40,932 nt of DNA, taken from Bacteroidales bacterium. GTDB lineage: Bacteria; Bacteroidota; Bacteroidia; Bacteroidales; UBA932. This document shows, piece after piece, positions 5,303-39,427 of the stretch. Location of the stretch: contig JAQVZL010000009.1 in the NCBI GenBank assembly GCA_028708215.1, positions 1 to 40,932 on the forward strand, in the 5' to 3' direction. Each line of letters opens with the position of its first letter. Position 1 is the first letter of the stretch. The notes under the pieces are model-generated. The model did no database searches. It had not been told where the DNA came from and saw only the letters and a program-made list of their open reading frames with translations. A program made the translations under genes and the position numbers.

Positions 5303-6181
5303 ATGATTAAGAGAATTAAAAGTGTACAAAACTATTTAGCAATGGTTAAGTTCGCTCACACTCTTTTTGCTTTACCTTTTGCTCTTGTTGGTTTTGTTTT
5401 AGCTCTTACTATCTCTAAGGCGAGTTTTTCAATACCCCTATTATTTCTTGTACTTGTAGCTATGGTATCGGCAAGAAATGCTGCTATGGGTTTTAATAGA
5501 TATGTAGATAGAGATATAGATAGTTTAAACCCTAGAACAAAAGAGAGAGAAATTCCATCTGGGAAGATCTCTGCCATAGCTGCTCTTAGATTTGTTATTA
5601 TTAACTCATTAATATTTCTTACAGCTGCATGGTTCATTAATCTATTGAGTTTTGTGCTAGCCTTTCCAACTCTTTTAGTTTTGCTCGGATACAGCTATTT
5701 TAAGCGCTTTAGTGCGCTAAGTCACTATGTTCTTGGCGCTGCACTCTCTATTGCGCCAACAGGGGCTTATATTGCAGTTTCAGGCACATTCCACATAGCT
5801 CCAGTTGTTCTATCTATATTAGTTTTATTTTGGGTTAGTGGTTTTGATATTATCTACTCTCTTGGCGATGAAAAATTTGATAAAGAGAATTCGCTTCACT
5901 CAATACCTCAGTTGGTAGGAACTAAAAAAGCTTTAATAATCTCTTCAGTTAGTCACTGTTTGGTGCTTCCAATGTTGGTTATGTTTTACCTTTCAGTAGA
6001 AGACCTAGGTGTTATTTACATAGTAGGTGCTATAATATTCTCACTATTACTATTATGGCAGCATCTTATTATTTCGTCTAAAGATCTTTCTAAAATTAAT
6101 GCAGCTTTTTTCACAGCAAACGGTATAGCTTCTATAATTTTTGCCCTCTTCACAATTGTAGGCCTACTTACTGCTCACTAA
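5303..6181 (+). CDS. UbiA-family polyprenyltransferase, possibly MqnP of menaquinone synthesis
   Basis: Integral membrane enzyme that attaches a prenyl chain to an aromatic acid. The 292-residue protein has about 8-9 hydrophobic segments and both Asp-rich Mg-diphosphate motifs: NRYVDRDIDSLNPRT (first) and YSLGDEKFDKE (second). The opening MVKFAHTLFALPFALVGF is the pattern I associate with the UbiA/MqnP branch rather than MenA, the prenyltransferase of the classical menaquinone route. If it is MqnP, the organism would use the futalosine pathway, but no other mqn gene is in the window. Substrate is therefore inferred. The gene follows pheT by 51 bases and is the last before a 414-base gene-free region. 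Confidence 0.85.
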   Translation: MIKRIKSVQNYLAMVKFAHTLFALPFALVGFVLALTISKASFSIPLLFLVLVAMVSARNAAMGFNRYVDRDIDSLNPRTKEREIPSGKISAIAALRFVIINSLIFLTAAWFINLLSFVLAFPTLLVLLGYSYFKRFSALSHYVLGAALSIAPTGAYIAVSGTFHIAPVVLSILVLFWVSGFDIIYSLGDEKFDKENSLHSIPQLVGTKKALIISSVSHCLVLPMLVMFYLSVEDLGVIYIVGAIIFSLLLLWQHLIISSKDLSKINAAFFTANGIASIIFALFTIVGLLTAH

Positions 6182-6197
6182 ATTTCCCCACCTAGTA

Positions 6198-6261
6198 GCT
6201 CTGCTCACACCACTTCATTTAATTAGCTGAAAAAGGGATGTTGCTTTATGTTGAGCAGAGC
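6198..6261. repeat. 10-bp perfect inverted repeat, 44-base spacer
   Basis: GCTCTGCTCA at 6198-6207 is the exact reverse complement of TGAGCAGAGC at 6252-6261. It lies 16 bases after the prenyltransferase stop and its right arm runs into palindromic copy 1. No T-tract follows, so it is not an obvious terminator; it may belong to the repeat element. Confidence 0.6.
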
Positions 6262-6410
6262 AAAGCAAACTTTGCCAGGAGATGATTACACGTAAACGCC
6301 TAACAGGTAGGTATTTAATTTTTCTAAATGAGCTCAAAAGGGCTTATTTTCAAAAGCTAACTACCATGTAATTAGCAACTTGTGTCCAATCATCTCCTGA
6401 GATAAAGTTT
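6255..6410 (+). repeat. Structured palindromic repeat element, copy 1
   Basis: A 156-base imperfect palindrome matching copy 2 at 34897-35050. The outer stem is CAGGAGATGATT (6276-6287) with AATCATCTCCTG (6388-6399), extended outward by AAACTTT/AAAGTTT (6267-6273, 6404-6410). The inner stem GGTATTTAA... with ...CTAACTACC leads to an apical hairpin, AAATGAGCT/GGCTTATTT around a CAAAAG loop (6326-6349). A 26-base block (6341-6366) and a 15-base block (6277-6291) are identical in copy 2. There is no ORF inside. It could be a MITE-like non-autonomous element, a REP/BIME-type repeat or a structured RNA. Confidence 0.85.
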
Positions 6411-6442
6411 CCCACCCAGTAACTAGATAATAATTAATAAAA

Positions 6443-6465
6443 TTGCTTCGCAGGAAGAGGGTGCC
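6443..6465 (+). repeat. Short shared module, copy A
   Basis: A 23-base segment starting TTGCTTCGCAGGAAG and ending GGTGCC matches 34811-34833 at 20 of 23 positions by eye. Here it lies 32 bases to the right of palindromic copy 1; in the other region the related segment lies to the left of copy 2. Confidence 0.7.
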
Positions 6466-6535
6466 AAGTATATATATCATAGTTTTAAAGATCTATCTAT
6501 GTTGTAACCTTATTATTAGTAGGTGATTGCTTAGC

Positions 6536-6574
6536 AAAAAAAAGAGACTGCCCAATTTTTAGACAGCCTCTTTT
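6536..6574 (-). terminator. Intrinsic terminator of eno
   Basis: Read on the minus strand, AAAAGAGGCTGTC pairs across a short loop with GGCAGTCTCTTTT, with two mismatches, and is followed by a run of T (the eight A at 6536-6543 on the plus strand). It lies about 20 bases after the eno stop codon. Confidence 0.85.
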
Positions 6575-6595
6575 AAGGAAAAAACAGTTTGTTTA

Positions 6596-7882
<1,287 letters not shown>

Positions 7883-7901
7883 TTAATATGATTGTGTTTT
7901 A

Positions 7902-8618
7902 TTAGTCGCGAAGCATATACTCTATAGTGCTCACAACTCTTACAGTTTTTATTTGAGGTGTATTGGCATCTCTGTCGTAAATAGAGAACTGCCCTTGGCT
8001 TGCTGTTTTAATTTTACCAAGTTTGCTATTAGAGTCTTTTGCAAATTTTTGGGCAGAAGCTCTTGCATTTTTAGTTGCTTCCTCTATCATAGAGGGTTTA
8101 ATTTGGTTTAGTAGAGTGTATAGATATTGAGTTTGATATTGGTAATCTCCAGCTAAAAGTGCTACTCCTTTTTTAAGAAGCTCAGACTGGCTTGAGATTA
8201 TTTTACTAACCAACTCTACCTTATTTGATGTCACAGTAATTACACTAGTGATGTTATAACGGTATTTAGAGGGCTGACTTTGGTACCTCTCTGCATTCAT
8301 ATCAATAATTGAAGGAGCAGATACATAAATCTCATTCTCTTCTAAGCCTTTAGATTTGAGATAAGAGATTATAACTTGGTTTTTGTGATTAATTGCTTTA
8401 TATAGTGTAGATAAATCATTACCTATCTCTTTATATACAACTGGCCATATCACTTTGTTCGCAGGAACTTCTATTTGAGCAAGACCCTTAACTTTAACTA
8501 CTCTCTCGTAAGACTTAAAAGAGATTACAGCGCTTTTAATAAATATCCCTAGAAAAATAAGGCCTAGCATTATAAAGAGACCAGGGAATAGAGTGTTTTT
8601 TGAAATATTAGTTCCCAT
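7902..8618 (-). CDS. SIMPL domain-containing (DUF541) membrane-anchored protein
   Basis: A 238-residue protein with one N-terminal membrane segment (about residues 10-32, LFPGLFIMLGLIFLGIFI) and a periplasmic domain of the SIMPL/DUF541 family. Family features seen are the VKVKGLAQIEVPANK opening, a helix starting with the YKAINHKNQVIISYLKSKGL stretch, the N-x-T-S-V-I-T-V-TSN strand, and EEATKNARASAQKFAKDSNSKLGKI near the C terminus. No enzymatic activity is established for the bacterial family; links to envelope stress have been reported for some members. It lies upstream of eno on the same strand and diverges from the amidase gene. Confidence 0.88.
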   Translation of the reverse strand: MGTNISKNTLFPGLFIMLGLIFLGIFIKSAVISFKSYERVVKVKGLAQIEVPANKVIWPVVYKEIGNDLSTLYKAINHKNQVIISYLKSKGLEENEIYVSAPSIIDMNAERYQSQPSKYRYNITSVITVTSNKVELVSKIISSQSELLKKGVALLAGDYQYQTQYLYTLLNQIKPSMIEEATKNARASAQKFAKDSNSKLGKIKTASQGQFSIYDRDANTPQIKTVRVVSTIEYMLRD

Positions 8619-8725
8619 AATTTTTGATTAAATTTGCAAATAAATAAAAAGCCTTGTTAAAAGAGCGTGCAAATTTAGCAAAGCTTTTTTTAAGTTTATA
8701 ACACTTTAATAACAAATATTAAGCC
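8619..8725. promoter_or_regulatory. Divergent promoter region, SIMPL gene and amidase
   Basis: TAnnTTTG-type elements occur on both strands: TAAATTTG on the plus strand at 8629-8636 and TAAATTTG on the minus strand at 8670-8677. Neither has a convincing -33 partner at the right distance, so assignment is tentative. The stretch is A+T-rich and otherwise featureless. Confidence 0.35.
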
Positions 8726-10210
8726 ATGAAACAAATTCTAAAGTTATTATCAATCATAGTGCTGGCCTCTATTACATCTCTATCTCTCTATTCTCAGGAA
8801 AATAGAATATTACGAATTGTAAGAGGCAAGGTAGATAGCACAGCTTCTAAAGTGCATTTCATTGTGGGGGTAGCAGAAAAAGGCTCTCAAGTTTATGTTA
8901 ATAAAGCTTCTGTAAAGCAGTATGAGACAGGTTCATTTGGGGTTGAATTACTGCTTGAAGAGGGAGAAAATAGTGTAGAAGTAGAAGCTAAAAAAGGCGA
9001 TACAGTAGAAAAAGAGAGTTTTACAATCTATTATAAAAAAAAGAAGCCTGTAGTAGCCGAGCCATCAACTACATATACTCTTCCTGTTGTTGTAACCAAA
9101 AGAGGAGCTTATCTCAACTACGGAGTTGGAGGTGACAGATTAGGAGGTGCTAAAATTAATTTTCTTGCTCAGGGAATAAAGATGGAATTACTTGCTGTAG
9201 AGGAGAGTCTCTATAAAGTAAAATTGTCTGAAAATAGGTATGCCTATATTCCTAAAAAGTTTGTAGAGATTTTGCCGTTTGGAGAAAAGCCTAACTTCTC
9301 TCATACAGGCTCATGGACCGTTTCAAAATTTGGAAATAGAGATATAGTAAGAGTCTCTTTAGAGGAGAGGCAGCCATATACTATTTATAGAGACCCTCAA
9401 TTGAATAGAATAGTTGTAGATATTCATGGTGTTGCATGTAATTCAAACTGGATAACACAATATCTTAACTTGGAGGCAATTGAATATGTTCATCTAAATC
9501 AAAAAGAGAGCGATGTTCTCTCTGTAATTATTAAGCTAAAAGATAAATACAGTTGGGGCTATTCTGTAGACTACTCTGGTACTGCACTTGAGATTTCTGT
9601 TAGGCACACTCCAGATGTTTTAAAGGGCAAATCTAAAACTAGATCAAAAAACTCTCTTGCCGGTCTCTACTTTGGTATAGATGCTGGCCATGGAGGCAAA
9701 TCTACTGGAGCAGTGAGCCCCTCTGGTATGAAAGAGAAGGATTTGAACTTAGCTATGGTTTATATGCTTAAAGAAGAGATTGAGAGTAGAGGAGGTAGAG
9801 TTATACTTAGCAGAACAGAAGATATAGATATGACTATGCAAGAGAGAAAAGATCTTTTTATTAATGAAGGTGTAGATATGGTACTCTCTGTACATTGTAA
9901 TGCGGGGGGTAACCCTTTGACTCAAATGGGTACTAGTACTTATTACAGACATATTGAAAACAGACCTCTTGCAAAGAGTGTTCTTAAAAGAATGTTAGAA
10001 CTCAATCTTAAGAACTTTGGGTTAGTAGGGAATTTTAATTTCTCGCTAGTAGCACCAACAGATTTCCCTGCAATTCTTGTTGAAACTCTCTTTATGAGCT
10101 CTCTTCCAGAAGAGGAGCAACTTGCTTCTGAAGAGTTTCAAAAGAAGATAATGGCTAAGGTTGCTTTAGGGTTAGAAGATTATATTAAAATGGTGAAAAG
10201 CTCACTGTAA
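8726..10210 (+). CDS. N-acetylmuramoyl-L-alanine amidase (Amidase_3), exported
   Basis: Zinc hydrolase that cuts the bond between muramic acid and the stem peptide, used in daughter-cell separation and wall turnover. A signal peptide (MKQILKLLSIIVLASITSLSLYSQ) precedes about 280 residues with an SH3-like segment (residues about 120-190, ending RYAYIPKKFVEIL) and an AMIN-like domain. The C-terminal Amidase_3 domain carries zinc ligands in DAGHGG, SPSGMKEKDLNLA and SVHCNAG, and the catalytic glutamate in ILVETLFMSS. It has no LysM repeats. It lies 29 bases before uvrB, so read-through into the repair genes is possible. Confidence 0.94.
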   Translation: MKQILKLLSIIVLASITSLSLYSQENRILRIVRGKVDSTASKVHFIVGVAEKGSQVYVNKASVKQYETGSFGVELLLEEGENSVEVEAKKGDTVEKESFTIYYKKKKPVVAEPSTTYTLPVVVTKRGAYLNYGVGGDRLGGAKINFLAQGIKMELLAVEESLYKVKLSENRYAYIPKKFVEILPFGEKPNFSHTGSWTVSKFGNRDIVRVSLEERQPYTIYRDPQLNRIVVDIHGVACNSNWITQYLNLEAIEYVHLNQKESDVLSVIIKLKDKYSWGYSVDYSGTALEISVRHTPDVLKGKSKTRSKNSLAGLYFGIDAGHGGKSTGAVSPSGMKEKDLNLAMVYMLKEEIESRGGRVILSRTEDIDMTMQERKDLFINEGVDMVLSVHCNAGGNPLTQMGTSTYYRHIENRPLAKSVLKRMLELNLKNFGLVGNFNFSLVAPTDFPAILVETLFMSSLPEEEQLASEEFQKKIMAKVALGLEDYIKMVKSSL

Positions 10211-33086: not shown

Positions 33087-33902
33087 TTACTCTGTTACTG
33101 GTAGCTGTTTTGTTATTTGATTAGCAATAGAATCGAAATGAGTCTTTATTAGCGATGAGTTAATTACTTCATTCATTTTACCATAGTCGCACTCTTGGCA
33201 TAACTTTTCATTCAATGGTATTTGTGCAAGAAGTGGAACACTAAACTTTTTAGCTAGAGCATCTCCACCACCTTTTCCAAAAAGAATATATTTCTCTTCT
33301 GGGTGGTTTTCAGGAGTAAACCAAGCCATGTTTTCAATAACTCCTAGTACAGGAACTCCAATAGTTTTATCGGCATATAAGTTAATTGCTTTTTGCACAT
33401 CTCCTGTAGAGAGCATTTGAGGGGTAGTTACTATTACCACTCCAGACACTTTGTACTCTTGGAGAAGAGAGATGTGAATATCTCCTGTTCCTGGAGGAGT
33501 ATCTACAATTAGATAATCTAATTTCCCCCATTGAGTTTGATCTATCATCTGCTTCATTCCGCTTGCTGCTAAAGGACCTCTCCAGATTGCAGCTTTTGCA
33601 GGGTCTACGAACAGACCAATTGACATTAATTTAATGCCGAACCTCACAATAGGTTCAATCATAGTTTTTCCGTTCTCTTCTACAACAGTAGGGCGGCATT
33701 GTTGAATATCAAACATCATTGGTAATGATGGGCCGTAAATATCTGCATCTAGTAGACCTGTTGAGTATCCCTCCATGGCTAAGGTCATTGCAAGGCTTGC
33801 TGCAACAGTAGATTTACCTACTCCTCCTTTGCCAGAAGCTACAATTATAATGTTTTTGACTTCTTTAAGCTCTTTTTTTACTATTGGGTTATCTTTGCTC
33901 AT
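33087..33902 (-). CDS. Mrp/NBP35-family P-loop ATPase, Fe-S carrier
   Basis: Cytosolic ATPase thought to carry and deliver iron-sulfur clusters. The 271-residue protein has the deviant Walker A GKGGVGKSTVAASLA, the switch region LLDADIYGPSLP, VDTPPGTGDIHISL and VIENMAWF. The N-terminal MIP18-like (DUF59) domain of typical Mrp proteins is absent, and the CxxC cluster-binding pair normally found in VIENMSxFxCPxC is missing (reads AWFTPENHPEE). Genes of this short form often sit with NifX-like and DUF134 genes in anaerobes, as here: the NifX-like gene is 6 bases upstream. Confidence 0.92.
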   Translation of the reverse strand: MSKDNPIVKKELKEVKNIIIVASGKGGVGKSTVAASLAMTLAMEGYSTGLLDADIYGPSLPMMFDIQQCRPTVVEENGKTMIEPIVRFGIKLMSIGLFVDPAKAAIWRGPLAASGMKQMIDQTQWGKLDYLIVDTPPGTGDIHISLLQEYKVSGVVIVTTPQMLSTGDVQKAINLYADKTIGVPVLGVIENMAWFTPENHPEEKYILFGKGGGDALAKKFSVPLLAQIPLNEKLCQECDYGKMNEVINSSLIKTHFDSIANQITKQLPVTE

Positions 33903-33908
33903 CTTTTT

Positions 33909-34247
33909 TTATTTTTTTATTTTATCAATTTTACCGTTTATTCTTGAAATTATCTCTTCTATTGTTGTTTCACTATTAGAGATAATTATCATTCCAATTT
34001 TCATACTCTCAAATACATTTTTTATTCTCTCTCCAAATTCAGAAGAGACAGCAATTTGTACATTCATAGATGAGAGCATTTTTACAACAGATGGACCTGC
34101 TCTTCTGGGAAGGTTGCGGTATGGATTTTCTATAAATTCAAGGGAACCACTCTCTTTATTGTAGATTGCAAAATATTCTGCTCTCCCAAAATGAGAACTG
34201 CATTTGCTCTTTATACTTTTTTCAATAGAAGTTATTGCATATTTCAT
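33909..34247 (-). CDS. NifX/NifB-type dinitrogenase cofactor-domain protein
   Basis: A 112-residue single-domain protein of the Nitro_FeMo-Co family. It opens MKYAITSIEKSIKSKCSSHFGRAEYFAIYN, where the short segment with S-HFGRA is the family hallmark, and ends in a lysine-rich tail (GKIDKIKK). In nitrogen fixers the family binds FeMo cofactor precursors, but stand-alone copies with Mrp and DUF134 genes occur in many non-fixing anaerobes; no nif genes are here. It lies between DUF134 (40-base gap) and mrp (6-base gap), so a role in metal-cluster binding is inferred. Confidence 0.88.
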   Translation of the reverse strand: MKYAITSIEKSIKSKCSSHFGRAEYFAIYNKESGSLEFIENPYRNLPRRAGPSVVKMLSSMNVQIAVSSEFGERIKNVFESMKIGMIIISNSETTIEEIISRINGKIDKIKK

Positions 34248-34287
34248 ACTAGTGCTACTATTTATCTTTAATAGTTATGAGTAGGTC

Positions 34288-34695
34288 TTATTCTGTACAA
34301 GAGTCAATGTTACTAGAGCCACATAATGTGCATATAGGGCTAGCTATGTGTAAATAGTTATTAAAAGAGGCTTCGCACTCCTTACAATAGTACCAATCGC
34401 TATCTAGAAAAACTCTCCCTCCTTCAAATACAATTCCTTTGCCCTCTGTAAAGGCTTTGGCAACTTTCTTTCTAGCGTGAGCATAAATTCGTGTAAATGT
34501 TGGTCTAGATATACCCATTACCAGAGAAGCCTCTTCTTGGCTCATAGACTCATAATCACACAATCTAATAGCTTCATACTCTTCTAAGTTTATGATTACT
34601 AGTGAGTGCTGTTTGTTTTTTTTAAAGTCTATTGGAGTATACCCTTTAATCAAAGGATGGGTGTCTATTCTTCTTAAATTTTTGGGCCTAGCCAT
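34288..34695 (-). CDS. DUF134 family predicted DNA-binding protein
   Basis: A 135-residue protein. The N-terminal part matches DUF134: LEEYEAIRLCDYESMSQEEASLVMGISRPTFTRIYAHARKKVAKAFTEGK, which contains a sigma-70 region-4-like helix-turn-helix. The C-terminal part is a zinc-ribbon-like unit (YYCKECEAS ... CTLCGSSN). It is the first gene of the DUF134-NifX-Mrp series and the probable regulator of it. A short inverted repeat lies in its promoter (34727-34738), which could be its own operator. No target has been shown. Confidence 0.9.
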   Translation of the reverse strand: MARPKNLRRIDTHPLIKGYTPIDFKKNKQHSLVIINLEEYEAIRLCDYESMSQEEASLVMGISRPTFTRIYAHARKKVAKAFTEGKGIVFEGGRVFLDSDWYYCKECEASFNNYLHIASPICTLCGSSNIDSCTE

Positions 34696-35148: not shown

Positions 35149-36804
35149 TTATTTTGCAGTTATTAAATAGTATTTACTAATTTTTCTAACATTAGGTTTC
35201 CCTAAATTTGTTGGACCTAAATTTAAATCTAAAGTACCTAACTCTTCTATGTTATATTGTGCACTTATTAATTGATCTTCTCTTAGCTTATTATCTAAAG
35301 GTGCAAGGAGAATAAAAGCTTGTTTGTTAGGAAAACCTATTTGTGAAGAATCTTTATTAATGATTGGAATTTTATATCCAAAATGCCAGATGGTTTCAGG
35401 AGGTACATAGTTATAGCCATAGAGATCTAACCCTCTTTCTGCAGCAAACATTTTTAGGGGGGTAAAAGGGGTGTCATTGTAGCTGGTCAAACTCTTTGAA
35501 AACGTAAGAGACAAACCAGATAGCATAACTCCAAACAGGAAAACTGTAAGAAAAAAAACCTTTTTTATTTCTCTTTTTTTAAGTTGAACTGTAATAAATA
35601 TACCACTCAAAAGAAGTATTATAGATGTAGCTATATAGTATGCCCAATTGCCAGAGAGATGGTCTTTAAGAAAAATATAGCTTACTACAGGAAGTAAGAT
35701 ACCTATAGCTGCAATTAGTCCAAAGTTAAAGAGAACAGGCAATCTCTCCTTTATTTTGCTAAACTCTTTAAATTTACGAAAGAGATACTCTATGTAAAAT
35801 CCAGTATTTATAGCAAGTGGTATTAGTACTGGCATAAGATATCTAGATTTTTTTTCGGGAACAATTGAGAGTAAAATTACTGCCAATAGTGTCCACAGTA
35901 AGCTAAATTGATAGGCTTTTAAATTGACAACTCTCTTTTTTAGATATGGATAAAGCAAGCTAATAAAGGCTGGTATGCTCCATAGACCACTTTGAAAGAA
36001 AAAACTCCAGTAATAATAGAAGGGTTTAACATTGTAGTTAGACCAATTAGAGGTCTCTCCTTGAGCTATCTCTAAGAACACATTTAGATCTTTTATGCGT
36101 ACATATAGGTACCACCATGCACTAAGTATAAGAGCTAATAAAATTGTTACCAGCAGAGGGGTAGCTTTAGCTTTTAACCTGCTGAATTTGTAAGTAAAAC
36201 CATAAGCTATTAAAAAAGGGAGAAGCAACGCATAAAGAGAAACTGGCCCTTTGCTCATAAAAGAAGCTCCTATAAATAGAGAGGCTATTATACCATTTTT
36301 CCAACTACCACTATTGGTTTTCAGTAGTAAGAAAAGATAGTAGATAGCTACTAACATAAAGCCATGGGCAAATATATCCCAAGGAGCCTCAATTATTATT
36401 CCAAAGGTATAAAATGAGGTGATGGCAATTAAGGCATTGATAAGACTATGTTGCCTGTTTTTTAGTATTTTATTAGAGATTAGATAGACAAAGACTCCAA
36501 TTACCATAACAAGTAGTAGTGCAGGTGCTCTTAGCGCAAGAAGCTTTTTGCTACCAAAAGCAAGACCAGAAAAAGCCGTTAGCCAGGTAGGAAGAGGGGG
36601 CTTTTCATAACGTGGCTCTCCATTCATTGTGGTGAGCAACCAATTGCCATCTGTTACCATTTCACGAGCTGTAATGAAGTTGCGAGCTTCCATTATGCTC
36701 ACCTCTATGGTAGAGATAAGAGGCAATAACATAATGGCTGTAAATATGCAAATGGTTAAAATTGGTTTTCGTTCAAGGGTTTTTATTAAACTGGGCATTC
36801 CCAT
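35149..36804 (-). CDS. GT39-family (ArnT/PMT-like) membrane glycosyltransferase
   Basis: Integral membrane enzyme that moves a sugar from a polyprenyl-phosphate carrier to a periplasmic acceptor such as lipid A or protein. 551 residues with about 12-13 hydrophobic segments. The first periplasmic loop carries the family signature: EVSIMEARNFITAREMVTDG and GEPRYEKPPLPTWLTAFSGLAFG; in ArnT the first part reads D-E-A-R, here M-E-A-R, so one acidic residue is gone. A later loop reads PEKKSRYLMPVLIPLAI, also typical. It is divergent from the GT2-LAB_N-epimerase operon, which probably makes and flips its donor. Acceptor and sugar are not known. Confidence 0.88.
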   Translation of the reverse strand: MGMPSLIKTLERKPILTICIFTAIMLLPLISTIEVSIMEARNFITAREMVTDGNWLLTTMNGEPRYEKPPLPTWLTAFSGLAFGSKKLLALRAPALLLVMVIGVFVYLISNKILKNRQHSLINALIAITSFYTFGIIIEAPWDIFAHGFMLVAIYYLFLLLKTNSGSWKNGIIASLFIGASFMSKGPVSLYALLLPFLIAYGFTYKFSRLKAKATPLLVTILLALILSAWWYLYVRIKDLNVFLEIAQGETSNWSNYNVKPFYYYWSFFFQSGLWSIPAFISLLYPYLKKRVVNLKAYQFSLLWTLLAVILLSIVPEKKSRYLMPVLIPLAINTGFYIEYLFRKFKEFSKIKERLPVLFNFGLIAAIGILLPVVSYIFLKDHLSGNWAYYIATSIILLLSGIFITVQLKKREIKKVFFLTVFLFGVMLSGLSLTFSKSLTSYNDTPFTPLKMFAAERGLDLYGYNYVPPETIWHFGYKIPIINKDSSQIGFPNKQAFILLAPLDNKLREDQLISAQYNIEELGTLDLNLGPTNLGKPNVRKISKYYLITAK

Positions 36805-36986
36805 TATGTTATTGGATAAATCTAATTCTCTTTTCTATACAAATTTGCATAAAAAAATAGGATATTAAAACTCTTGTGGTAATGATTTTTACTCTGTACT
36901 ATAAAAAGCTGTGGATTCTCCTATTTCCTAAAAAGATACAATACTAATTATTAAAGCATATAATTACAAATTAGAAGAAATTTAAC

Positions 36987-36994
36987 TACTTTTG
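36987..36994 (+). promoter_or_regulatory. TAnnTTTG -7 element for the GT2-LAB_N-epimerase operon
   Basis: TACTTTTG is an exact -7 match, about 41 bases before the GT2 start codon. No TTTG is seen at the -33 position. Confidence 0.45.
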
Positions 36995-37035
36995 ATGCGC
37001 TTTTACCTGTACTCTTTTCATTTTTTAATATTATT

Positions 37036-37782
37036 ATGGAGATAAATAAAAACAGCACCCAGCGCTATAGCTTTACTATACTTGTGCCATTGTATAATGA
37101 AGAGGAAAACATTTTTGCTTTAGAGAAGAATTTAAATCTCTTTTTACCAAACTCTTTATACTCTACATGTGTGGTTTTTATAAACGATGGTTCTACTGAT
37201 AATAGTTTGAATCTCATATGTGAGGTTTGTAAGCGAAACAGTCATTTCTTTTATATAAGTTTAGAGAATAATGGAGGTCTTAGCACTGCTCTCAAAGCAG
37301 GTATAGATTACACTTTCTCTGATTATTTGGGATATATGGATGCCGATATGCAGACAGATCCAGAAGATTTTAATTTGTTATTAAATGAGATAGACAATTA
37401 TGGGTTGGTTACAGGTATTAGAGCAAACCGTAAAGACACTTTTTTTAAAAAAATACAGTCTATAATAGCTAATGGTTTTCGTAGGGCTATGACTAAAGAT
37501 GGAATCTCAGATACCGGGTGTCCTTTAAAAGTAATGCACACCCATTTAGCCAAGCGCATTCCTCTTTTCAGTGGAATGCATAGGTTTTTGCCAGCATTAA
37601 TTCAGCTGCAAAAGAAAGAGGTACAACAAATTGTAGTAAGGCATTACCCGCGCTATGCAGGAGAATCAAAATATCATTTATGGAATAGATTGACAGGTCC
37701 ATTTATTGATTGCTTTGCTTATAGATGGATGAGAAAACGCTACATTAACTATAACGTTAATGCCAATAATATAGAGGAGTAA
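37036..37782 (+). CDS. GT2 glycosyltransferase, polyprenyl-phosphate sugar synthase type
   Basis: Cytosolic or membrane-associated enzyme predicted to move a sugar from a nucleotide donor to polyprenyl phosphate. 248 residues, GT-A fold: ILVPLYNEEENI, FINDGSTDNSL, GYMDADMQTDPEDF (acidic metal site), ISDTGCPLKVMH, FSGMHRFLPALI and RHYPRYAGESKYHLWNRL. There are no C-terminal membrane helices, unlike ArnC or GtrB, so it is closer to DPM1 or RgtE in layout. Its stop codon overlaps the start of the LAB_N gene by one base (TAATG), so the two are translationally coupled; the partner in the divergent position is a GT39 transferase. Confidence 0.88.
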   Translation: MEINKNSTQRYSFTILVPLYNEEENIFALEKNLNLFLPNSLYSTCVVFINDGSTDNSLNLICEVCKRNSHFFYISLENNGGLSTALKAGIDYTFSDYLGYMDADMQTDPEDFNLLLNEIDNYGLVTGIRANRKDTFFKKIQSIIANGFRRAMTKDGISDTGCPLKVMHTHLAKRIPLFSGMHRFLPALIQLQKKEVQQIVVRHYPRYAGESKYHLWNRLTGPFIDCFAYRWMRKRYINYNVNANNIEE

Positions 37783-38420
37783 TGCAACTGTCCCATTTTT
37801 GGATTTATCTAATTGGCTTTACCGCACAACTGTTTTTTTCTGCTCGTCTTTTATATCAGTGGATTGTTACAGAAAAAGCTAAAAAGGTACTCTCCCCACC
37901 AATTTTTTGGATATTGAGTATTTTGGGCTCTTATCTACTCTTTATATATGGTCTATTACGTGACGATTTTGCAATTATTCTAGGGCAGTATATTGGTTAT
38001 TATATTTATCTATGGAATTTAAATATGCAGGGAGTATGGAAAAAAGTATTCCCAATTTTTAAAGTTCTATTACTAATAACTCCTATTGTAGTAACAGTAA
38101 TTATTCTTCGTGACTTATCTGTATTTCATGCTGTTTTTTTTCAGAACAAAGAGATACCTTTATGGCTGTTAATTTTAGGTTCTTCTGGTCAGGTGATTTT
38201 CTCATTAAGGTTCTTATATCAGTTTATCTACTCTGTATCGCGTCATGAATCTTCTTTGCCTACAGGTTTTTGGGTGATTAGTTTAATTGGTTCATCTACT
38301 ATTATTGCTTACGCTGTTTTTCGTCTAGATCCCGTACTTTTACTGGGGCAATCTTTCGGTTTTATAGTATATATTAGAAATTTAATTATAGGAAATAGAG
38401 AAAAAAATAGTACTAAATGA
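37782..38420 (+). CDS. Membrane protein with two tandem LAB_N domains
   Basis: A 212-residue membrane protein made of two related halves, each matching the lipid-A-disaccharide synthase N-terminal (LAB_N) domain: FTAQLFFSARLLYQWIVTEK with ILGQYIGYYIYLWNL in the first, and SSGQVIFSLRFLYQFIYSVS with LLGQSFGFIVYIRNL in the second. The duplication gives six or seven hydrophobic segments. It is not LpxB, because the catalytic part is missing. LAB_N proteins beside GT2 genes are candidates for small-multidrug-resistance-like flippases of polyprenyl-phosphate sugars, comparable to ArnE/ArnF; this is inference. It overlaps both neighbours (TAATG and ATGA). Confidence 0.88.
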   Translation: MQLSHFWIYLIGFTAQLFFSARLLYQWIVTEKAKKVLSPPIFWILSILGSYLLFIYGLLRDDFAIILGQYIGYYIYLWNLNMQGVWKKVFPIFKVLLLITPIVVTVIILRDLSVFHAVFFQNKEIPLWLLILGSSGQVIFSLRFLYQFIYSVSRHESSLPTGFWVISLIGSSTIIAYAVFRLDPVLLLGQSFGFIVYIRNLIIGNREKNSTK

Positions 38421-39427
38421 AAATAATTGTAACTGGTGCTGCAGGATTTATTGGCTTTCACGTTGTGAAGAGATTGCTAGAACAAGGGTGTGAGGTTGTT
38501 GGTATAGACAATATTAACTCTTACTATGATGTAAAATTAAAATACAATCGTCTTTTTGAAACAGGTATTGCAGAGAAAGAGATAAAGCCTAATGTTTTTG
38601 TACAGAGCAAAACTTTTCCCTCTTATAGATTTATGCAGTTAGATATAACAGAAAAGAAGATGCTTAGTTCTCTCTTTGAAGCAGAGCGTTTTTCTCACGT
38701 TATTCACCTTGCAGCTCAAGCTGGAGTAAGGTATTCGCTAGTTAACCCCGATGCCTATATAAAATCTAATATTGTGGGATTTATGAATATATTAGAGAGT
38801 TGTAGGAGGTTTCCAGTAAAACATTTAGTTTATGCTAGTTCTAGTAGTGTTTATGGGGCAAATAGAGAGCTGCCATATAGAGAGAGTGATAGAACAGATA
38901 CTCCAGTAAGTCTATATGCGGCTACAAAAAAATCAAATGAGTTAATAGCATATACCTATAGCAATTTATATAATATCCCAACAACTGGTATAAGGTTTTT
39001 TACTGTTTATGGCCCCTGGGGGCGCCCAGATATGGCACCCACATTGTTTATGATGGCAATAACTACAAATAAAACCATTAGGGTGTTTAATCATAGTAAA
39101 ATGAAACGCGACTTTACCTATATAGACGATATTGTAGATGGTTTAATGAAAATTGTTCCAACACCACCTAAAGGAGAGAACCTCAATGTAATATATAATA
39201 TTGGCTGCTCATCGCCTGTTAGAATAATGGATTTTATTAAAACAATAGAGAGTGTTACAAAGAAAAAAGCAGTGGTGAATATGGTTGACATGCAACCAGG
39301 AGATGTGGTAGAAACTTATGCAGATACCTCTCTTCTGGAAAGAGATTTTAATTACAAACCCTCTACAGATCTTAGTGTGGGTATAAAAAAATTCTACGAT
39401 TGGTTTAAAGAGTATTACTCTTTGTAA
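38417..39427 (+). CDS. UDP-glucuronate 4-epimerase-type NAD-dependent epimerase
   Basis: Extended short-chain dehydrogenase/reductase, 336 residues, predicted to turn UDP-glucuronate into UDP-galacturonate. Rossmann motif GAAGFIGFHVVKRL, DNINSYYDVKLKYNR, catalytic serine in YASSSSVYGANRELP, catalytic YxxxK in LYAATKKSNE, and GRPDMAPTLFMMAI and FNHSKMKRDFTYIDDIVDG, which are typical of the CapI/LpsL uronate epimerases rather than GalE. The C terminus KPSTDLSVGIKKFYDWFKEYY also fits. It overlaps the LAB_N gene by four bases (ATGA). A bidirectional terminator follows. UDP-glucose dehydrogenase, which would supply the substrate, is not in the window. Confidence 0.9.
   Translation: MKIIVTGAAGFIGFHVVKRLLEQGCEVVGIDNINSYYDVKLKYNRLFETGIAEKEIKPNVFVQSKTFPSYRFMQLDITEKKMLSSLFEAERFSHVIHLAAQAGVRYSLVNPDAYIKSNIVGFMNILESCRRFPVKHLVYASSSSVYGANRELPYRESDRTDTPVSLYAATKKSNELIAYTYSNLYNIPTTGIRFFTVYGPWGRPDMAPTLFMMAITTNKTIRVFNHSKMKRDFTYIDDIVDGLMKIVPTPPKGENLNVIYNIGCSSPVRIMDFIKTIESVTKKKAVVNMVDMQPGDVVETYADTSLLERDFNYKPSTDLSVGIKKFYDWFKEYYSL

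Follow-up and report, generated by a model that had tools for sequence, protein, structure and literature searches.

The locus and its conservation in Bacteroidota

The stretch analysed here (the window) is 40,932 nucleotides long and comprises positions 1 to 40,932 of the forward strand of contig JAQVZL010000009.1, from the Bacteroidales bacterium assembly GCA_028708215.1. It carries a gene for a GT39-family glycosyltransferase that diverges from genes for a family 2 glycosyltransferase (GT2), a membrane protein with a doubled LAB_N domain and a predicted UDP-glucuronate 4-epimerase (UGE). An earlier note, made from the sequence alone, had read these four genes as a possible pathway for uronic acid decoration of the cell envelope. 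All four open reading frames (ORFs) lie where it placed them, and their Pfam identities fit its labels.

35149-36804, minus strand: GT39, ORF of 551 amino acids; PMT_2 (Pfam)
36805-37035, no strand: divergent intergenic region of 231 bases (direct sequence)
37036-37782, plus strand: GT2, ORF of 248 amino acids; Glycos_transf_2 (Pfam)
37782-38420, plus strand: doubled LAB_N membrane protein, ORF of 212 amino acids; PF07578 twice
38417-39427, plus strand: epimerase, expected UDP-glucuronate 4-epimerase of the RPDM type, ORF of 336 amino acids; Epimerase PF01370
39518-40930: dnaK, adjoining the cassette; a gap of about 90 bases separates it from the epimerase gene

The GT2 stop and the LAB_N start have one base in common and the LAB_N and epimerase genes overlap by four bases, so these three genes look translationally coupled.

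The earlier note had asked for a neighbourhood survey of such gene sets. We gathered loci through LAB_N alone (60 named loci plus another 15 found in relatives, two collections that overlap slightly) and counted linkage in the 55 loci having 4 kb on both flanks, accepting GT39 genes within 2.5 kb and epimerase genes within 4 kb. Two GT39 families were distinguished: GT39A, the subfamily of the window's enzyme, and GT39B, which is found at most loci. GT2 and LAB_N formed the tightest pair, adjacent in 53 of the 55 loci; a GT39A or GT39B gene was present in 49, an epimerase gene in 38 and the whole set in 37. This count missed the epimerase of locus L030, whose open frame is common with GT39B. 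Because the linkage recurs in dozens of genomes, the grouping is not due to chance. Nor is the set special to one genome, since Phocaeicola, Bacteroides, Prevotella and others also have all four parts; the window's GT39 type is not the rule, the usual cassette transferase being GT39B. The two families alternate among cassettes (L055 and L058 carry both), and the gene orders seen were GT2-LAB_N-GT39B-UGE, GT2-LAB_N-UGE-GT39A, GT39A-GT2-LAB_N-UGE and UGE-GT2-LAB_N-GT39B. An unannotated circular record of 29.8 kb from Phocaeicola massiliensis (L124) has GT39A-GT2-LAB_N-UGE in a row at 5624-9681 and may be a mobile carrier.

Among 24 relatives from the window's own genus, LAB_N was found in 11 genomes and the epimerase in nine, all nine within those 11 and at the same place (Fisher test by our own arithmetic, approximately 4e-5, for genomes that are related to one another). 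In one genome, G005, the LAB_N match (L012, G005:C125:4664-5281) spans an in-frame TAA and no close epimerase was found; this cassette is perhaps decaying.

The cassette beyond Bacteroidota

GT2-LAB_N-GT39 sets were also found on annotated plasmid records of Thalassospira, Azospirillum and Ilyobacter, and in a different order in Paracoccus. The Cetobacterium cassette adds an epimerase and a gene of the UDP-glucose/GDP-mannose dehydrogenase family. In Paenibacillus cellulosilyticus (L119 1365-4836), genes for Ugd, UGE, GT2 and LAB_N are close or overlapping and no GT39 gene adjoins them. An RPD[ML] motif, discussed below, is kept in the SDR enzymes of Cetobacterium, Ilyobacter, Paracoccus and Hymenobacter. 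Two-component systems are neighbours of the cassette in Thalassospira, Ilyobacter, Cetobacterium, Paracoccus and Hymenobacter, as they are of known lipid A modification genes. A GT2-LAB_N-GT39 set is present in Azospirillum lipoferum 4B, a species whose lipid A is reported, in work cited by PMC7663294, to carry alpha-(1,1)-linked galacturonic acid (GalA). The cassette is widespread, and it is apparently undescribed.

Predicted functions of the four proteins

The epimerase matched PF01370 (4.6e-54) and, in full length, the PDB entries 5u4q (1e-111) and 6zl6 (5.6e-45). Its signatures ASSSSVYG, YAATK and RFFTVYGPWGRPDM supply the S-S/T and Y-x3-K elements and the arginine of the RPDM motif, and 6zl6 bears the same RPDM. 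This arginine aligns to residue 185 of 6zl6, and Arg185 binds the carboxylate of UDP-GalA in the UDP-glucuronate (UDP-GlcA) 4-epimerase of Bacillus cereus (PMC12338863). All 44 cassette epimerases that could be read have the RFFTVYGPWGRPDM motif, 37 in identical form and seven as a close variant. Against GalE the protein scored 154.8 bits, under the NCBIfam equivalog cut-off of 262.3. The enzyme is therefore expected to be a UDP-glucuronate 4-epimerase giving UDP-galacturonate, and the label of the earlier note is upheld by the motif and the 6zl6 match. Roles as GalE, dTDP-glucose dehydratase or UDP-xylose synthase were ruled out by the motif and the cut-offs.

The GT2 protein (Glycos_transf_2, 9.4e-23) falls among polyprenyl-phosphate GT2 enzymes, its nearest solved structures being ArnC (2.3e-26) and the GtrB protein sll0501 (4.7e-17). 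At 90.9 bits it lies under the equivalog cut-off of 529 for ArnC (NCBIfam). ArnC and GtrB possess transmembrane helices, and no hydrophobic segment of the window's GT2 exceeded the threshold for one. From its sequence it is most likely a helix-less polyprenyl-phosphate glycosyltransferase of the ArnC/GtrB/DPM1 type.

The GT39 protein (PMT_2, 1.9e-12) scored 81.8 bits against the ArnT model NF009784, under the equivalog cut-off of 567 (NCBIfam). Its AlphaFold model has a mean predicted local distance difference test (pLDDT) of 82.8, and the best PDB match was clearly ArnT (5ezm; TM-score 0.69, E 6.4e-13), with ALG9/ALG12 and oligosaccharyltransferases ranking behind. Residues invariant in the GT39A subfamily are E39-x-R41, R65, K68-P-P, D143 and S184-K-G-P, and the nearest relative of the window's copy is from Zhouia (47.5% identity). 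GT39A is thus predicted to be a periplasmic, ArnT-like glycosyltransferase with a GT-C fold, in keeping with the GT39-type transferase named in the earlier note.

The LAB_N protein matched its Pfam family over two stretches (1.5e-56), and its two halves share 35% identity across 74 residues. There was a weak match to MtN3_slv (3.8e-4, under the curated cut-off). In a profile search SemiSWEET chains ranked first (4qnc, 3.3e-5), and the model (pLDDT 88) has seven helices in a 3+1+3 arrangement; both place the protein in the SWEET/PQ-loop superfamily. The LAB_N profile has previously been assigned to the PQ-loop family together with MPDU1 and SWEETs, in a study that called such names misleading (PMC3281891). 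No functional study of LAB_N was found in our literature search. Residues Q16, R22, Q26, E31, R60, D62, Q69, R143 and D183 are invariant. LAB_N proteins of Alphaproteobacteria and Fusobacteriota are single units, and those outside Bacteroidota have 91-111 residues. The doubled form of Bacteroidota and the single units elsewhere mirror SWEET and SemiSWEET, and dimers of single units may have given rise to doubled, seven-helix proteins as in the passage from SemiSWEET to SWEET. In the relative G010, a GT39A gene adjoins a GtrA-family gene, with no LAB_N gene at that spot. Classic three-component systems have GtrA as their proposed flippase (PMC11127046), and an exchange of the two proteins next to the same transferase family fits a common role, although this is a single case and a thin one. 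The transporter superfamily and the location would both suit a flippase, and on the profile and model evidence we propose that doubled LAB_N is a flippase for a polyprenyl-phosphate sugar and possibly also an anchor for GT2.

Origin of the window copy

In a tree of GT2 and LAB_N, the window falls inside a Dysgonomonadaceae set (16 rows, support 100/100) and outside the clade of its own genus (11 rows, 100/99). Identities to Dysgonomonadaceae and to the genus are 64-82% versus 53-62% for LAB_N, 67-83% versus 55-63% for GT2 and 63-72% versus 55-61% for the epimerase. DnaK points the opposite way, with 84-88% identity to the genus and 73-75% to Dysgonomonadaceae genomes. Because GT2, LAB_N and the epimerase side with Dysgonomonadaceae and the adjacent dnaK with the genus, these three genes were probably gained horizontally. 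In a check for misbinning of the contig, its dnaK agreed with the genus. The assembly consists of 112 contigs and is 90% complete, and the contig of the nearest relative (L020) is short and also metagenomic.

At readable Dysgonomonadaceae loci, GT39B stands after LAB_N and before the epimerase gene; the window has no GT39B there. A search of the rest of its genome for GT39B found none, an empty answer that is weak by itself, in an assembly that is 90% complete. With no GT39B found, and with the window's GT39A differing from the Dysgonomonadaceae type, the comparison suggests that the transferase was replaced, GT39B giving way to GT39A, perhaps for another acceptor.

A proposed galacturonate transfer pathway and its alternatives

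Starting from computed gene identities, conserved linkage, the catalytic signature and folds, we infer a GT2 substrate, a flipping step and an acceptor. The locus fairly probably encodes a three-component periplasmic glycosylation system for GalA with a SWEET-type flippase candidate. Ugd, encoded elsewhere in the genome, would supply UDP-GlcA, which the epimerase would convert to UDP-GalA. GalA would then be loaded onto undecaprenyl phosphate by GT2, a soluble enzyme that is probably kept at the membrane; doubled LAB_N, with its SWEET-type fold, would flip the loaded carrier so that the sugar faces the periplasm, and the ArnT-like GT39 would attach GalA to an acceptor in the envelope, for which lipid A or the lipopolysaccharide (LPS) inner core is most likely. 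In the window's genome, contig C41 carries a UDP-glucose dehydrogenase-type gene and C84 a TviB-type gene, and LpxB and LpxK are present, so both the supply of UDP-GalA and a lipid A acceptor are plausible. The earlier note had taken the four genes to work together and GalA to be the sugar. The conserved, mobile cassette speaks for the former; the epimerase motif, and the Ugd-type gene and epimerase included in the cassettes of Cetobacterium and Paenibacillus, speak for the latter as the most likely sugar. As far as our literature search reached, it gave no description of such a pathway, in keeping with the note, which knew of none in Bacteroidetes with exactly these parts, and nothing specific on GalA on Bacteroidetes lipid A.

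Several observations weigh against this proposal. Support for the cassette members is computational throughout. A Foldseek search with the LAB_N model ranked SemiSWEET first at a non-significant E of about 0.8, and the fold link therefore rests on the sequence profile. GT39A is present in a genome (G004) that has no LAB_N. For Azospirillum, the link between cassette and GalA is correlative, and an rgtF homologue is present in the species as well. About one third of LAB_N loci have no nearby epimerase, and a third GT39 type occurs at L065 (8616-10235) and, judged by its start, at L068 (8607-10226); the transferred sugar may therefore vary. This third type is more PMT-like and follows GT2-LAB_N in two Bacteroidales without an epimerase, where other sugars may use the LAB_N flippase family. 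Paenibacillus, finally, is Gram-positive and has no LPS or lipid A, yet it has Ugd-UGE-GT2-LAB_N. We therefore regard GalA as the firm part of the proposal and lipid A as only the likeliest of several acceptors.

The Paenibacillus locus also favours the same GalA chemistry with a different acceptor, such as O-antigen, capsule, exopolysaccharide or a protein glycan, a possibility that we rate somewhat below an even chance. Classic Gtr systems decorate O-antigen (PMC11127046), the alternation of two GT39 families and a third type is as expected for differing acceptors, and the GT39 score is far under the ArnT cut-off. However, the nearest solved fold is that of ArnT, a lipid A enzyme, and neither the window nor the majority of the loci read has a polysaccharide gene cluster beside the cassette. 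That the sugar is something other than GalA appears improbable. The epimerase would then serve a separate polysaccharide pathway and GT2 would use UDP-glucose, UDP-N-acetylglucosamine or a similar donor, as might be argued from the cassettes without an epimerase and from the many Bacteroidales that have the epimerase without LAB_N. The overlapping genes, the joint presence within the genus, the common Dysgonomonadaceae affinity of the epimerase and GT2-LAB_N, and the cassettes of two other phyla that include a Ugd-type gene and the epimerase all argue against it.

It is also rather unlikely that LAB_N serves as membrane anchor or partner of the helix-less GT2, as DPM2/DPM3 do for DPM1, while another protein does the flipping. 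The missing helix of GT2, the gene overlap and the tightness of the LAB_N-GT2 pair would suit such a role, and a GtrA protein is also encoded in the window's genome. The SemiSWEET relationship and the 3+1+3 architecture favour a flippase instead, and the invariant polar residues are not obviously needed for anchoring alone. LAB_N may fill both roles at once.

Relation to known systems

Like the known three-component systems (GtrA/GtrB/Gtr, GtcA/CsbB and a MATE flippase with GT136), the cassette joins a GT2, a small flippase candidate and a GT-C transferase. The flippase candidate in those systems is GtrA, SMR or MATE, whereas here it is LAB_N, and the cassette differs further in its helix-less GT2 and built-in nucleotide-sugar epimerase. 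The rhizobial Rgt system (RgtE, RgtA-D/F), likened here by description, combines a proposed polyprenyl-phosphate-GalA donor with GT39-type transferases acting on LPS; the coupling to LAB_N sets the cassette apart. A control search for LAB_N in Caulobacter, which makes GalA-bearing lipid A through RgtE/RgtF homologues, gave no match. With the Arn system (ArnC, ArnE/F, ArnT) the cassette has in common an ArnC-like GT2 and the ArnT fold, but the sugar there is 4-amino-4-deoxy-L-arabinose rather than the expected GalA, ArnA/B/D and EamA-type ArnE/F are absent from the cassette, and the scores are far under the Arn equivalog cut-offs. By the tests run, the cassette is not a member of the Arn system.

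The eukaryotic DPM1-MPDU1-PMT system likewise pairs a helix-less polyprenyl-phosphate-sugar synthase with a PQ-loop-superfamily protein and a PMT-type GT-C enzyme, although sugar and acceptor differ and the link between LAB_N and MPDU1 is taken from PMC3281891. MPDU1 is needed for the use of dolichol-phosphate-linked mannose and glucose by an unsolved mechanism (PMC4281381). How monophosphate-linked sugars cross the membrane is unsolved in bacteria, as is the role of MPDU1 in people; a mobile cassette this compact, which carries its own GT2 together with a flippase candidate, a transferase and a sugar enzyme, offers a tractable test system. If the proposal is true, Bacteroidales would have a further way to alter surface charge, which could bear on the tolerance of gut and digester bacteria to cationic peptides.

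Flanking sequence

Genes for a DUF134 regulator, a NifX-like protein and an Mrp/NUBPL protein adjoin the cassette at 33087-34695 of the window; in G010, a DUF134-NifX-like pair also lies about 7 kb away from the cassette (L081 17406-18001). The intergenic region contains a weak Bacteroidota -7-like site, TACTTTTG, on the plus strand at about 36987-36994, a single short match that may be due to chance.

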